Assembly (NCBI GenBank): GCA_017983635.1
Contig: JAGOBA010000008.1
Location: forward strand, 1 to 64,000
Reading direction: 5' to 3'
Length of the DNA: 64,000 bases
From: Alphaproteobacteria bacterium
GTDB taxonomy: Bacteria > Pseudomonadota > Alphaproteobacteria > Micropepsales > Micropepsaceae
The position numbers and the translations under genes were made by a program. This document shows positions 2,720 through 10,295 of the stretch, piece by piece. Below the pieces are notes generated by a model. The model had not been told where the DNA came from. It saw only the letters and a list, made by a program, of their open reading frames with translations, and did no database searches. Position 1 is the stretch's first letter. Every line of letters starts with the position of its first letter.

Positions 2720-4375
2720 TCAGATAATTGCGCCCGCCGCCATGAGCGCCTCTTTGAGCGGGCCGAAGTGTGGTTCGTAGTTCTTCCAGCGGCCGGCAGA
2801 ACGCTTGTAGACAGGCTGGCGTACCTGCCAAACGCTGGCGGTCAGCACCGTGCGTTTCACATCTTGCGGGCGAAGGCAGGCCTCGTCCCAGGGCAGGCCC
2901 ACGAAGTCGATTAGCTTGCGCGAGACATCTTCCTGGTTCTCGACCAGGTCTTCGTAGTCGATTTCGAGCATGCGGCCCGGCAAGACCTCGCGCCAATGCT
3001 GCATCAAATGCTGGTAGTGGGCGTAGTGATGACCCAGGTCGGCAAGGTCGCGGCTGTAGGCGTGAGCGTCGTTGAAGTTCTGCTGCCAAATTGAAAGGCA
3101 GGTGTCGAAAGGACTGCGTCGGGTGTGAATGATCCGCGCGTTCGGGAACATCAGCGCGATGAAGCCGACTGCTTGGAAGTTGTGAGGCATCTTGTCGGTA
3201 ACGCGGGCGGCGCTGGCATCTTTTGCCTTCACATCGATCGCATCCAGATAACGCTGAGCCAATATCTCAGCGCCGACCCACGTCAGCTGGAGCGGGTTCT
3301 TTTGGGGCCCTTCATCCTTGAACACGAGGCTGCCCATCTGGCGCTCGCAGCGCTTGACGGTCTCCAATTCGCCCGCGGCGTGGACGGCCGGGTGGGCGCC
3401 GATGATGGTCTCGGTCAGCGTCGTGCCGGATCGCGGCATGCCCACGATGAAGACCGGACGCTCACTCTCGAGTCCAAAGGACTTTCGTTCCTCATAGAAT
3501 TTACGCGTGTAAGTGTTTTTGAGGTCGGCGTATGTGCGCTCGAGATCCTTGGCGTCGTACTTGCCCGCGGCCAGCTTGTTGGCGGTATCGAAATACTTGA
3601 AGGCTTCGTCGTATCGGCCGACGTCGTCGTACATTTTCGCGGCGGCGTAATAGAGGCCCCGCAACTCCTTCGCGATGGTGTCTTTCGATGCGATCAGCTT
3701 CTCGACCATGGCGATTTCGGGATCGGTCGCCTTGAACTTTCGAGCGTTGGACAGATTGACGTAGCCGCTCGACGCCCCCGGCGCGGCCGCGATGAGATCA
3801 CGTGCGGCCGCCTCAGACTCTGCCGTTCGGCCGAGACTCAACAGAGCGCGACTGATCCCGCCTTTCGCAGCCTGGCTGTCGGGCTTCAACTTCATCAGCC
3901 GATCGAAGCACTTCAGGGCGCGCTCGCCTTGACCGGTTAGGTTCAGCGTGCGGCCGAGGTTGAGCCAGGCATCGGCCATGTCGGGTTTGATCGCGAGGGC
4001 GCGTTCGAGATGTTCGATCGCGTCTTCGAAGCGCCGGACGAGCGAGAGCGCGTTGCCGTAGTTGTTCAATACCACCGGGTCCTTCGGGCGGGCGGCGACG
4101 GCGCGCTCAAGGAAGTCGAACGCTGCTTCGTGATTGCCCGCTTCCATCGCGAGCACGCCCAAGAGGTTGAGCGCGTCGGGCTGGTTGGGGACCTTCGCGA
4201 GAACGGCACGATAGACCTTCTCCGCTTCTTCGCCGCGTCCCGCCTTGTGGTGTTCGATCCCCGCTTCGAGTTGCTTTTGCAGCTCAAACGGATTGACCGG
4301 ATAGTTCCAGCCGGTGCCGCCTCGTTGCATGGGCATGCCGAGACCGGGGAGACGTGGCTGCGGGGGCTGGGACAT
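2720..4375 (-). CDS. Tetratricopeptide-repeat sulfotransferase
   Basis: A 551-residue two-part protein. Residues ~25-330 are a run of TPR units (for example YRAVLAKVPNQPDALNLLG and LERALAIKPDMADAWLNLG). From about residue 335 there is a PAPS-dependent sulfotransferase domain with the 5'-phosphosulfate loop FIVGMPRSGTTLTE, the 3'-phosphate region IIHTRRSPFDTCLSIW, and a conserved C-terminal lysine/glycine-rich segment (YKRSAGRWKNYEPHF). Such proteins transfer sulfate from PAPS to a protein tyrosine or carbohydrate hydroxyl; the acceptor here is unknown. The frame is open to 4942, but the ATG at 4375 is chosen because the extension overlaps the regulatory region and the small heat-shock gene on the other strand and has no domain character. 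Divergent from hsp20. Confidence 0.85.
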   Translation of the reverse strand: MSQPPQPRLPGLGMPMQRGGTGWNYPVNPFELQKQLEAGIEHHKAGRGEEAEKVYRAVLAKVPNQPDALNLLGVLAMEAGNHEAAFDFLERAVAARPKDPVVLNNYGNALSLVRRFEDAIEHLERALAIKPDMADAWLNLGRTLNLTGQGERALKCFDRLMKLKPDSQAAKGGISRALLSLGRTAESEAAARDLIAAAPGASSGYVNLSNARKFKATDPEIAMVEKLIASKDTIAKELRGLYYAAAKMYDDVGRYDEAFKYFDTANKLAAGKYDAKDLERTYADLKNTYTRKFYEERKSFGLESERPVFIVGMPRSGTTLTETIIGAHPAVHAAGELETVKRCERQMGSLVFKDEGPQKNPLQLTWVGAEILAQRYLDAIDVKAKDASAARVTDKMPHNFQAVGFIALMFPNARIIHTRRSPFDTCLSIWQQNFNDAHAYSRDLADLGHHYAHYQHLMQHWREVLPGRMLEIDYEDLVENQEDVSRKLIDFVGLPWDEACLRPQDVKRTVLTASVWQVRQPVYKRSAGRWKNYEPHFGPLKEALMAAGAII

Positions 4376-4444
4376 CGGAACTCTCTCGAACTGAGTGGCT
4401 TGGAATCGCTGATGTTTACGCTTAGCACGGGCGCCGTTGGCGGG

Positions 4445-4471
4445 CTTGACGGTCGAAAATCCTATCCCCAT
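4445..4471 (+). promoter_or_regulatory. RpoH (sigma-32)-type heat-shock promoter
   Basis: CTTGAC at 4445-4450 is separated by 15 bases from CCCCAT at 4466-4471 (followed by CT), close to the sigma-32 pattern CTTGAA...CCCCATNT. Transcription would begin near 4478, giving a leader of about 105 bases before the hsp20 ATG. That is the length typical of ROSE-controlled leaders. Confidence 0.7.
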
Positions 4472-4524
4472 CTGAAGCTTTGTTCGACGGGTGCCCACCG
4501 GGGCCCGGGACGGACAGGACCTCG

Positions 4525-4576
4525 AAAATCCGGCCCTTTTTGGCGGATTTTCCTTACATCGCTTCAAAAAGGATGG
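4525..4576 (+). promoter_or_regulatory. ROSE-like RNA thermometer in the hsp20 leader
   Basis: Two hairpins can be drawn in the leader. The first (4525-4551) pairs AAAATCC-GCC with GGC-GGATTTT, with G4532 bulged. The second (4557-4575) pairs CATCGCT with AGGATG, leaving the G of TCGCT bulged and a six-base loop. That is exactly the U-Y-G-C-U-opposite-AGGA arrangement that defines the Shine-Dalgarno hairpin of ROSE elements. The sequestered AGGA (4570-4573) is the ribosome-binding site for the ATG at 4583. Melting at high temperature would release it. Confidence 0.75.
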
Positions 4577-4582
4577 ACAGTC

Positions 4583-5056
4583 ATGCGCAGTTTCGATTTT
4601 AGCCCGCTTTATCGCTCGACCGTTGGTTTCGACCGGCTCGCCAATTTGCTTGAGACGGTCAATCAGGTCGACCCGGCGACGCCGAGCTATCCGCCCTACA
4701 ACATCGAGCAGTTGGCCGACAACGACTATCGAATTTCGATGGCGGTTGCGGGCTTCGGCGACCAGGACCTTTCGGTCGAGGTCAAGGAAGGCGTGCTCAC
4801 GATCACCGGCAAGCGCAACGGCGAAGAGCCAAAGTCGCGCTTCCTCTATCAGGGGATCGCCGGGCGCAGCTTCGAGCGGCGCTTCCAGCTTGCCGATCAT
4901 ATGGAAGTTCGCGGAGCGCGGCTTGAGCACGGCTTGCTGCACGTCGACATCGTGCGCGTGATTCCGGAAGAGAAGCGGGCGCGCAAGATCTCGATCTCGG
5001 CGGTAAAGGCCGGCGAGCCGCGGATCGTCGATGCGACGGTCGCCAACGCGGCCTAA
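4583..5056 (+). CDS. Small heat-shock protein Hsp20 (IbpA type)
   Basis: A 157-residue ATP-independent holdase of the alpha-crystallin family. The N-terminus (MRSFDFSPLYRSTVGFDRL) is the signature of the IbpA/HspH class A proteins. The alpha-crystallin domain runs from about residue 38 (YNIEQLADNDYRISMAVAG) to about 128 and includes the conserved L-x-I-x-G strand (GVLTITGKR) and RSFERRFQLAD. Such proteins bind unfolding cytoplasmic proteins and hand them to DnaK/ClpB. The frame extends upstream, but the ATG at 4583 sits seven to nine bases after AGGA and matches the family start. Regulation appears double: a sigma-32-type promoter and a ROSE-like hairpin over its ribosome-binding site. It converges with the Pat-like gene, with 3 bases between stops. 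Confidence 0.95.
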   Translation: MRSFDFSPLYRSTVGFDRLANLLETVNQVDPATPSYPPYNIEQLADNDYRISMAVAGFGDQDLSVEVKEGVLTITGKRNGEEPKSRFLYQGIAGRSFERRFQLADHMEVRGARLEHGLLHVDIVRVIPEEKRARKISISAVKAGEPRIVDATVANAA

Positions 5057-7988: not shown

Positions 7989-8462
7989 ATGCGTTCGCTG
8001 ATTCCCCTTTCCTTTGGCAACGATCTTGCCCGGCGCGACGACAGCGACCCGTTTGCGATCATGCAGAAAGAGATCAACCGCATGTTCAGCGATTTCGGGC
8101 GCGGCCTGCCGGCGCGCTTCGACGGCGACGTGTCGCCGCGCATCGACGTCGCCGAGACCGAAAGCGCAGTCGAGGTGACGGCTGAGCTTCCCGGCATCGA
8201 CGAAAAGGACGTCGACGTCGTGTTGCGCGACGATCTTCTGACGATCAAAGGCGAGAAGAAGAGCGAGCGGGAGGAAAAGAAGAAGGACTACCACTTGGTG
8301 GAACGGTCGTTTGGAAGTTTCTCGCGCTCGATCCGGTTGCCGTTTGAGGCGGACTCCGAAACGGTGAAGGCCAACTTTGCTAAGGGCGTCTTGAAGATTT
8401 CGATCGCGAAGCCCGCGCAAGTTAAGGAAAAGACTGTGAAAATCCCCGTCCGGAGCACGTAG
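7989..8462 (+). CDS. Small heat-shock protein Hsp20 (class C/archaeal-like type)
   Basis: A 157-residue Hsp20 distinct from the one at 4583. It starts MRSLIPLSFGNDLARRDD and has the alpha-crystallin domain from about residue 50 (RIDVAETESAVEVTAELPG) to about 148, including DLLTIKGEKKSEREEKKKDY and the GSFSRSIRLPFEAD strand. It ends with a charged tail containing the I-x-I/V-like anchor KTVKIPV used for oligomerisation. The role is an ATP-independent holdase in the cytoplasm. GGAGG stands 11 bases before the ATG; unlike the first hsp20 it has no obvious ROSE bulged-G hairpin, although AAAAA and TTTTT flank a short loop just upstream. It is divergent from the Pat-like gene. Confidence 0.95.
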   Translation: MRSLIPLSFGNDLARRDDSDPFAIMQKEINRMFSDFGRGLPARFDGDVSPRIDVAETESAVEVTAELPGIDEKDVDVVLRDDLLTIKGEKKSEREEKKKDYHLVERSFGSFSRSIRLPFEADSETVKANFAKGVLKISIAKPAQVKEKTVKIPVRST

Positions 8463-9611: not shown

Positions 9612-10295
9612 TTAGCGCTTGTTGGCTTTCTTGGCCGGCTTCTTGGCCTTTGGCTTGGGGCCGGGGCGTTGGCGCGCCAAGGTGCGGCCGAGCTTCTTTT
9701 CCAGCGATTTGATGAAGGCGGGCGAGCCAAACGGACGGCCAGTGTGCTCGCAGGCGGCAATCATTTTCAACTCAGCGCCGGTCAGCGGCTTGGCGAGCTC
9801 GGTCTTCCAGTCCCGGCCCTTGATCGCCCTCAAATCAAGGAAGCCGTCGGCTTTGCCCTTCAACCGCGTTTGCGCACTGGACCAGCGCCAATCGCGTGCT
9901 TTCAGAGCCACCCGGCCGCGCACCGGCGCTTGCTCGACAAAACGGGCCACGAGCGGCAACGAAGCTTCGTCCATCGGAAACGACGAGAAGCGGCCACGGA
10001 ACAGGCCACCTTCACGGGAGCGGCGTGCATTGACGGCGCGGGTGAAGCGGCGGTGCGCCTCGCCCAATGCCTGGCGCAGCGCCTTCGGCCCGGGCGGCAC
10101 TAAGATCAGGTGGACTTCCTTCGGCATCAGGCAATAGGCAACGACGGAAACGCGCGCACTTGCGCAACCTTCGGCGACCAAGGCCACATATTCTTTGTAG
10201 TCTTCGTCGGTGGAAAAAATGCGCTGACCAGGGTTGCCGCGTTGCAGCACATGGTGGGGCGCTCCAGGCGCCACTGCTCTTGCCAAACGAGCCAT
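9612..10295 (-). CDS. RAYT-like Y1 transposase homologue, catalytic residues replaced
   Basis: A 227-residue protein of the REP-associated tyrosine transposase/IS200-like family, which normally cuts single-stranded DNA with an HUH motif and one tyrosine. Family landmarks are plain: MARLARAVAPGAPHHVLQRG at the N-terminus, YCLMPKEVHLILVPPG, GEAHRRFTRAVNARR, LFRGRFSSFPMDE and DWRWSSA. Two catalytic positions differ. The usual NHVHLI is KEVHLI, so the first metal-binding His is Glu, and the usual RRYTR is RRFTR, so the nucleophilic Tyr is Phe. The lysine-rich tail (KPKAKKPAKKANKR) looks like a DNA-binding extension. The frame is intact, suggesting selection for something other than strand cleavage. 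It is convergent with the esterase gene. Confidence 0.8.
   Translation of the reverse strand: MARLARAVAPGAPHHVLQRGNPGQRIFSTDEDYKEYVALVAEGCASARVSVVAYCLMPKEVHLILVPPGPKALRQALGEAHRRFTRAVNARRSREGGLFRGRFSSFPMDEASLPLVARFVEQAPVRGRVALKARDWRWSSAQTRLKGKADGFLDLRAIKGRDWKTELAKPLTGAELKMIAACEHTGRPFGSPAFIKSLEKKLGRTLARQRPGPKPKAKKPAKKANKR

Follow-up and report, generated by a model that had tools for sequence, protein, structure and literature searches.

The window, which is the whole 64 kb stretch of DNA that was analysed, carries at 4583–5056 on the forward strand an hsp20 gene for a small heat-shock protein (sHSP) of the IbpA/HspA type (157 amino acids; Pfam PF00011, E 3e-19); by alignment its product is 50% identical to E. 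coli IbpA. The divergent gene at 2723–4390 (reverse strand) encodes a TPR–sulfotransferase fusion protein and starts near the hsp20 promoter. A second hsp20 lies at 7989–8462, and a third was located elsewhere in the genome (contig C3, 40844); ROSE leaders were looked for at both and none was seen. Another group of sHSP paralogues in the family (L201, L206, L207, L211 and L212) has its own bulged-G Shine–Dalgarno hairpin with arms AGCC/GGCU, a hairpin that the third hsp20 lacks. The reverse-strand open reading frame at 9612–10295 contains HHVLQRGN (found by eye), which suggests a RAYT-like REP-associated tyrosine transposase.

Promoter and leader of hsp20

A sigma-32 (RpoH)-type promoter was read directly from the sequence at 4445–4471 (+), with CTTGAC at 4445–4450, a 15-base spacer and CCCCAT at 4466–4471; the boxes are thus of the CTTGAA (−35) and CCCCAT (−10) types and lie within the 13–18 bp spacing of sigma-32 promoters. 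The pattern CTTGAM-N13–16-CCCCAT was found once on both strands of the 64 kb (0.04 occurrences expected), and most orthologues are preceded by a like promoter, CTTGA..C(C/T)(C/T)AT. RpoH is encoded in the genome (TIGR02392, 375.6 bits, above the cut-off), as is a second RpoH-like protein. The ATG at 4583 lies 111 bases past the end of the −10 box, and the promoter places the transcript start near 4478, giving a 5′ leader of about 105 nt (4478–4582, +).

Folding from this deduced start gave a minimum-energy structure with three hairpins on the forward strand, a number and leader length within the 2–4 hairpins in 60 to >100 nt that mark ROSE elements before sHSP genes. Hairpin 1 (4479–4518) ends in the cap CGGGU-G4493-CCC[ACC]GGG-GCCCG at 4488–4507, identified by the cap scan described below; the minimum-energy drawing shows a G/G 1×1 loop there, which is near-equivalent to the bulge form. 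Hairpin 2 (4524–4552) reads GAAAAUCCG-G4533-CC[CUUUUU]GG-CGGAUUUUC, with a bulged G, and is kept in 8/8 genus members. The third, the thermosensor hairpin CAUC-G4561-CUU[CAAA]AAG-GAUG (4557–4575), covers the Shine–Dalgarno sequence AGGA (4570–4573, 9 nt before the ATG): CATC (4557–4560) pairs with the GATG that ends at 4575, G4561 is unpaired, and CTT (4562–4564) pairs with AAG across the loop CAAA (7 pairs in all), so that UCGCU at 4559–4563 stands opposite AGGA. When the promoter was included in the folded sequence the structure changed and the z-score against shuffles was only −1.1; folding energy alone was therefore given little weight, and conservation was taken as the strong evidence. 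The first-pass annotation had proposed a ROSE-type hairpin, CATCGCT with AGGATG and an unpaired G, under a CTTGAC-N15-CCCCAT promoter; both were borne out by direct reading, by their retention in orthologues and, for the promoter, by its single occurrence and the presence of RpoH. Its distance of about 105 bases from promoter to start codon fits the deduced transcript start, although counted from the end of the −10 box the interval is 111 bases, and its one upstream hairpin has to be replaced by two, making three hairpins in the leader.

The probable thermosensor hairpin and its conservation

Conservation was assessed in 97 orthologous leaders, of which eight came from the genus, counting the window itself, 78 from other members of the family and 11 from elsewhere in the class. 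The sensor hairpin could be written for nearly all and is kept in >90%; the GCU/AG core is accompanied by outer pair 1 in 91/97 leaders, pair 2 in 92/97 and pair 4 in 96/97, and the equivalent of G4561 is retained in nearly all. Within the genus the form is CAUC-g-CU..AG-GAUG with a variable loop length. The covariation signal comes from other genera, because the arms hardly vary within the genus; outside it they co-vary as CAAC/GUUG, CAAAC/GUUUG, AUGUC/GAUAU, GAUAUC/GAUAUC and CAUGUU/GAUAUG. Among 45 distinct extra-genus hairpins, aligned in a register that favours pairing (the best-pairing AG was chosen for each sequence and a few poorly pairing hairpins were omitted), 95.2% of cells were paired against 77.7 ± 1.6 when shuffled, the covariation score was 0.439 against 0.143, and both-sided changes were found in 47 cells against 15.9 ± 2.8; slid registers collapsed (≤61% paired, covariation ≤0.08). 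When all 62 distinct arm pairs were used, 285/310 cells were paired against 212 ± 6 after shuffling. The structure is thus held by compensatory change in relatives outside the genus.

The core itself also varies by compensation. The U-A pair beside C-G is A-U in 58 of the 97 leaders and U-A in 33; a large sister genus (L018, L029, L112–L169) has ACGCU opposite AGGU, a compensated pair swap, and in six leaders with GGCU a G opposite G replaces C-G. As the ACGCU/AGGU form and the A-U majority show, U(U/C)GCU, the defining motif in the literature (PMC3669281, PMC12857270), can be exchanged by compensation; what stays constant is the bulged G together with the CU/AG pairs.

For recognition of the element by model, a covariance model was trained on relatives with no sequence from the window's genus. 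Its best match in the 64 kb was 4554–4575 (19.4 bits, E 0.0076), and it also picked, in Aeromonas and Vibrio among others, the Shine–Dalgarno hairpin upstream of ibpA-type genes. Across the whole genome the sensor site was second of three weak matches to this small model; the match above it (contig C21, 20.4 bits) has no suitably placed start codon with an open frame and the one below it (contig C10, 18.9 bits) lies inside an apparent coding region, and both were rejected as chance. Only four GCU/AG-core bulged-G hairpins with at least four Watson–Crick outer pairs are present on both strands of the 64 kb, and among them 4557–4575 alone holds AGGA and precedes a start codon. The ROSE search that had been suggested as a check gave a divided answer. 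Whereas the site was the top match in the window for the model built without the genus, Rfam RF00435 (ROSE) scored the leader at 14.1 bits (E 8.3; cut-off 45), and RF01832 (ROSE_2; cut-off 65 bits) gave no match in the window at either curated or relaxed thresholds. RF00435 gave 55–66 bits on Rhizobium, and ROSE_2 gave 100 bits on E. coli; on unmistakable ROSE-core leaders of related Alphaproteobacteria RF00435 reached 28–31 bits, under its cut-off, and on Martelella and Aureimonas it gave nothing above threshold. Since it misses clear ROSE leaders, its low score here reflects a narrow model, too narrow to refute the assignment. Matches to SAH and SAM_alpha on the opposite strand fell below threshold and were rejected as chance, and a near-threshold match to NsiR1, a cyanobacterial sRNA family, in sequence L017 (2111–2171, reverse strand; 35.4 bits, cut-off 39) is probably chance as well.

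The computed openness of AGGA was 0.03 at 25°C, 0.11 at 42°C and 0.19 at 50°C, so that only limited opening is predicted at 42°C; with G4561 removed in silico it was ≤0.015 at all temperatures. In a ROSE-like element, deletion of the equivalent G lessened heat induction (PMC11342760), and in pseudomonal ibpA leaders stabilising deletions in hairpin II lowered expression and ribosome binding (PMC3669281). Upstream hairpins of the ROSE elements studied are stable and the last one melts (PMC3669281; for E. coli ibpA, PMC9450479). On this pattern, RpoH-containing polymerase would initiate near 4478 upon heat stress; in the cool, the 3′ hairpin would pair UCGCU with the Shine–Dalgarno AGGA and block the ribosome, and with warming the short helix, weakened by bulged G4561, would open gradually and allow Hsp20 to be produced, while the GC-rich hairpins 1 and 2 would remain closed and let the sensor hairpin fold independently. 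The leader is thus very probably a ROSE-type RNA thermometer transcribed under RpoH, with its Shine–Dalgarno sequence masked in the cool, and dual control of transcription and translation by heat is the expected outcome. That the hairpin arose by chance, or serves translational efficiency without temperature control, would suit the unremarkable folding z-score of the region and the near-background Rfam score, but such an origin would hardly yield covariation across family and class or a G-C-U/A-G core that is invariant in 45 distinct hairpins, and we regard it as highly improbable.

Relation to known ROSE elements

By its defining features the element is of ROSE type and lies outside both Rfam ROSE families. 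With ROSE proper (RF00435; Bradyrhizobium hspA and rhizobial sHSP leaders) it shares the sHSP gene, the sigma-32-type promoter, several hairpins and a U(U/C)GCU paired to the Shine–Dalgarno sequence with a bulged G, and the RF00435 consensus draws a bulged G in the first hairpin too; it differs in its score (14.1 bits against the cut-off of 45), in its shorter sensor stem (7 pairs) and in the sequences of hairpins 1 and 2. ROSE_2 (RF01832; E. coli and Salmonella ibpA) likewise has three hairpins, of which the last masks the Shine–Dalgarno sequence with a bulged G and both upstream ones carry a bulged-G cap, but its stems are different and Rfam reports no match. The short ROSE-like elements of Pseudomonas ibpA resemble the window in having a short sensor hairpin whose U(U/C)GCU stands between G-C pairs, a stable upstream hairpin and a sigma-32-type promoter, but have two hairpins rather than three (PMC3669281). 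ROSE-G has a related core opposite the Shine–Dalgarno sequence; it differs in having CUGCU with a G bulged on both strands and in preceding ABC transporter genes, against UCGCU with a one-strand bulge here (PMC12857270). What is added is a further leader of a known kind: ROSE-type control is extended to an alphaproteobacterial genus whose named records, as far as found, are metagenome assemblies, and a large clade of ROSE-type leaders is shown to be missed by the Rfam model. The part that specialists may not expect is a cap repeated along the leader.

The bulged-G cap and the hairpins upstream of the sensor

All three hairpins of the window leader share a cap in which one unpaired G on the 5′ side is followed by 2–3 bp and a short loop. 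The first-pass annotation had placed the unpaired G of the Shine–Dalgarno hairpin correctly (G4561) and overlooked that both upstream hairpins share this geometry. Bulges were counted in upstream hairpins with 7 bp or more, in the leaders and in 588 control windows, summed over groups. A 5′ one-base bulge at the cap position was present in 139/259 upstream leader hairpins and was G in 132, and a 3′ bulge was present in 6; the 775 hairpins of the control windows had a 5′ bulge in 50 (G in 7) and a 3′ bulge in 51. In a pattern scan independent of the minimum-energy fold, caps with G on the 5′ side occurred upstream of the sensor at 1.32 per leader, at least five times as often as those with any other base or side (0.08–0.26), and at 0.24 before other open reading frames of the window; these counts ignore kinship among the sequences, against which the occurrence in both alpha- and gammaproteobacteria and the asymmetry of side and base serve as safeguards. 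In about half of the caps GG stands at the bulge point, so that which G bulges is ambiguous. The two upstream hairpins of E. coli ibpA carry the cap, and it was also found once in the ibpB leader, in 3/3 hairpins of most Aeromonas leaders and in both Rfam ROSE consensus structures; in the scan, several Vibrio and Photobacterium leaders showed no upstream cap. A search of the open literature found no description of the cap as a repeated unit, the bulged G being described there for the Shine–Dalgarno hairpin alone.

According to PMC3669281 the part played by the 5′ hairpins in ROSE elements is incompletely understood, and the way in which IbpA selects its own mRNA is an open question too (PMC10474464). 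Translation is repressed via R93 when IbpA of E. coli, Cedecea or Vibrio binds the 5′ UTR of its own mRNA; in E. coli this repression also requires R97/K98 and Y34, and structured RNAs, RNA thermometers among them, seem to be favoured by IbpA (PMC10474464). The window Hsp20 has R93, R97/K98 and the aromatic residue at Y34 in equivalent positions, namely Y36, R95, R99 and R100 for E. coli Y34, R93, R97 and K98 (alignment; K98 as R). In addition to its role as a thermometer, the leader may therefore be a platform where the protein's own oligomers bind the bulged-G hairpins and repress translation, which unfolded protein would turn on by titrating Hsp20 away; this addition, compatible with the thermometer, is put forward tentatively, by analogy with IbpA, and we lean somewhat against it. 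It is consistent with the presence of all four IbpA positions, with the second window hsp20, whose product lacks R93-type residues and which has no bulged-G hairpins before it in the cap scan, and with the recurrence of the cap, here and in distant sHSP leaders, in upstream hairpins, which in the characterised elements stay unmelted (PMC3669281, PMC9450479). It is less easily reconciled with E. coli IbpB, which has no R93 although the ibpB leader contains one cap, or with the third hsp20 of the genome, which retains R93 but is without a ROSE leader.

Because melting leaves the bulged G of the stable upstream hairpins unexplained, and because the window Hsp20 keeps the IbpA residues, the cap is proposed as a unit of protein recognition. 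ROSE sHSP leaders would then be arrays of this unit recognised by the sHSP oligomer, with the upstream hairpins as putative protein sites and the last copy doubling as the thermometer, a generalisation from IbpA that is more speculative still and that we consider rather unlikely. The repeated cap nevertheless matters more than the leader itself, as one mutable base per hairpin gives access both to the role of the 5′ hairpins and to the choice of mRNA by IbpA. The main alternative to recognition is duplication of the sensor hairpin: the upstream bulged-G hairpins would be its decayed tandem copies, with no role other than keeping the leader folded. In Aeromonas and the gammaproteobacterium PMG_192 the cap letters of the first hairpin are indeed near-identical to those of the sensor (GCUC/GAGG). 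This origin too is doubtful, and is disfavoured because decay would not be expected to preserve just the side, the base and the loop distance: these three are kept in the alphaproteobacterial caps, although most of them read gCC/GG and their stems are unrelated in sequence.
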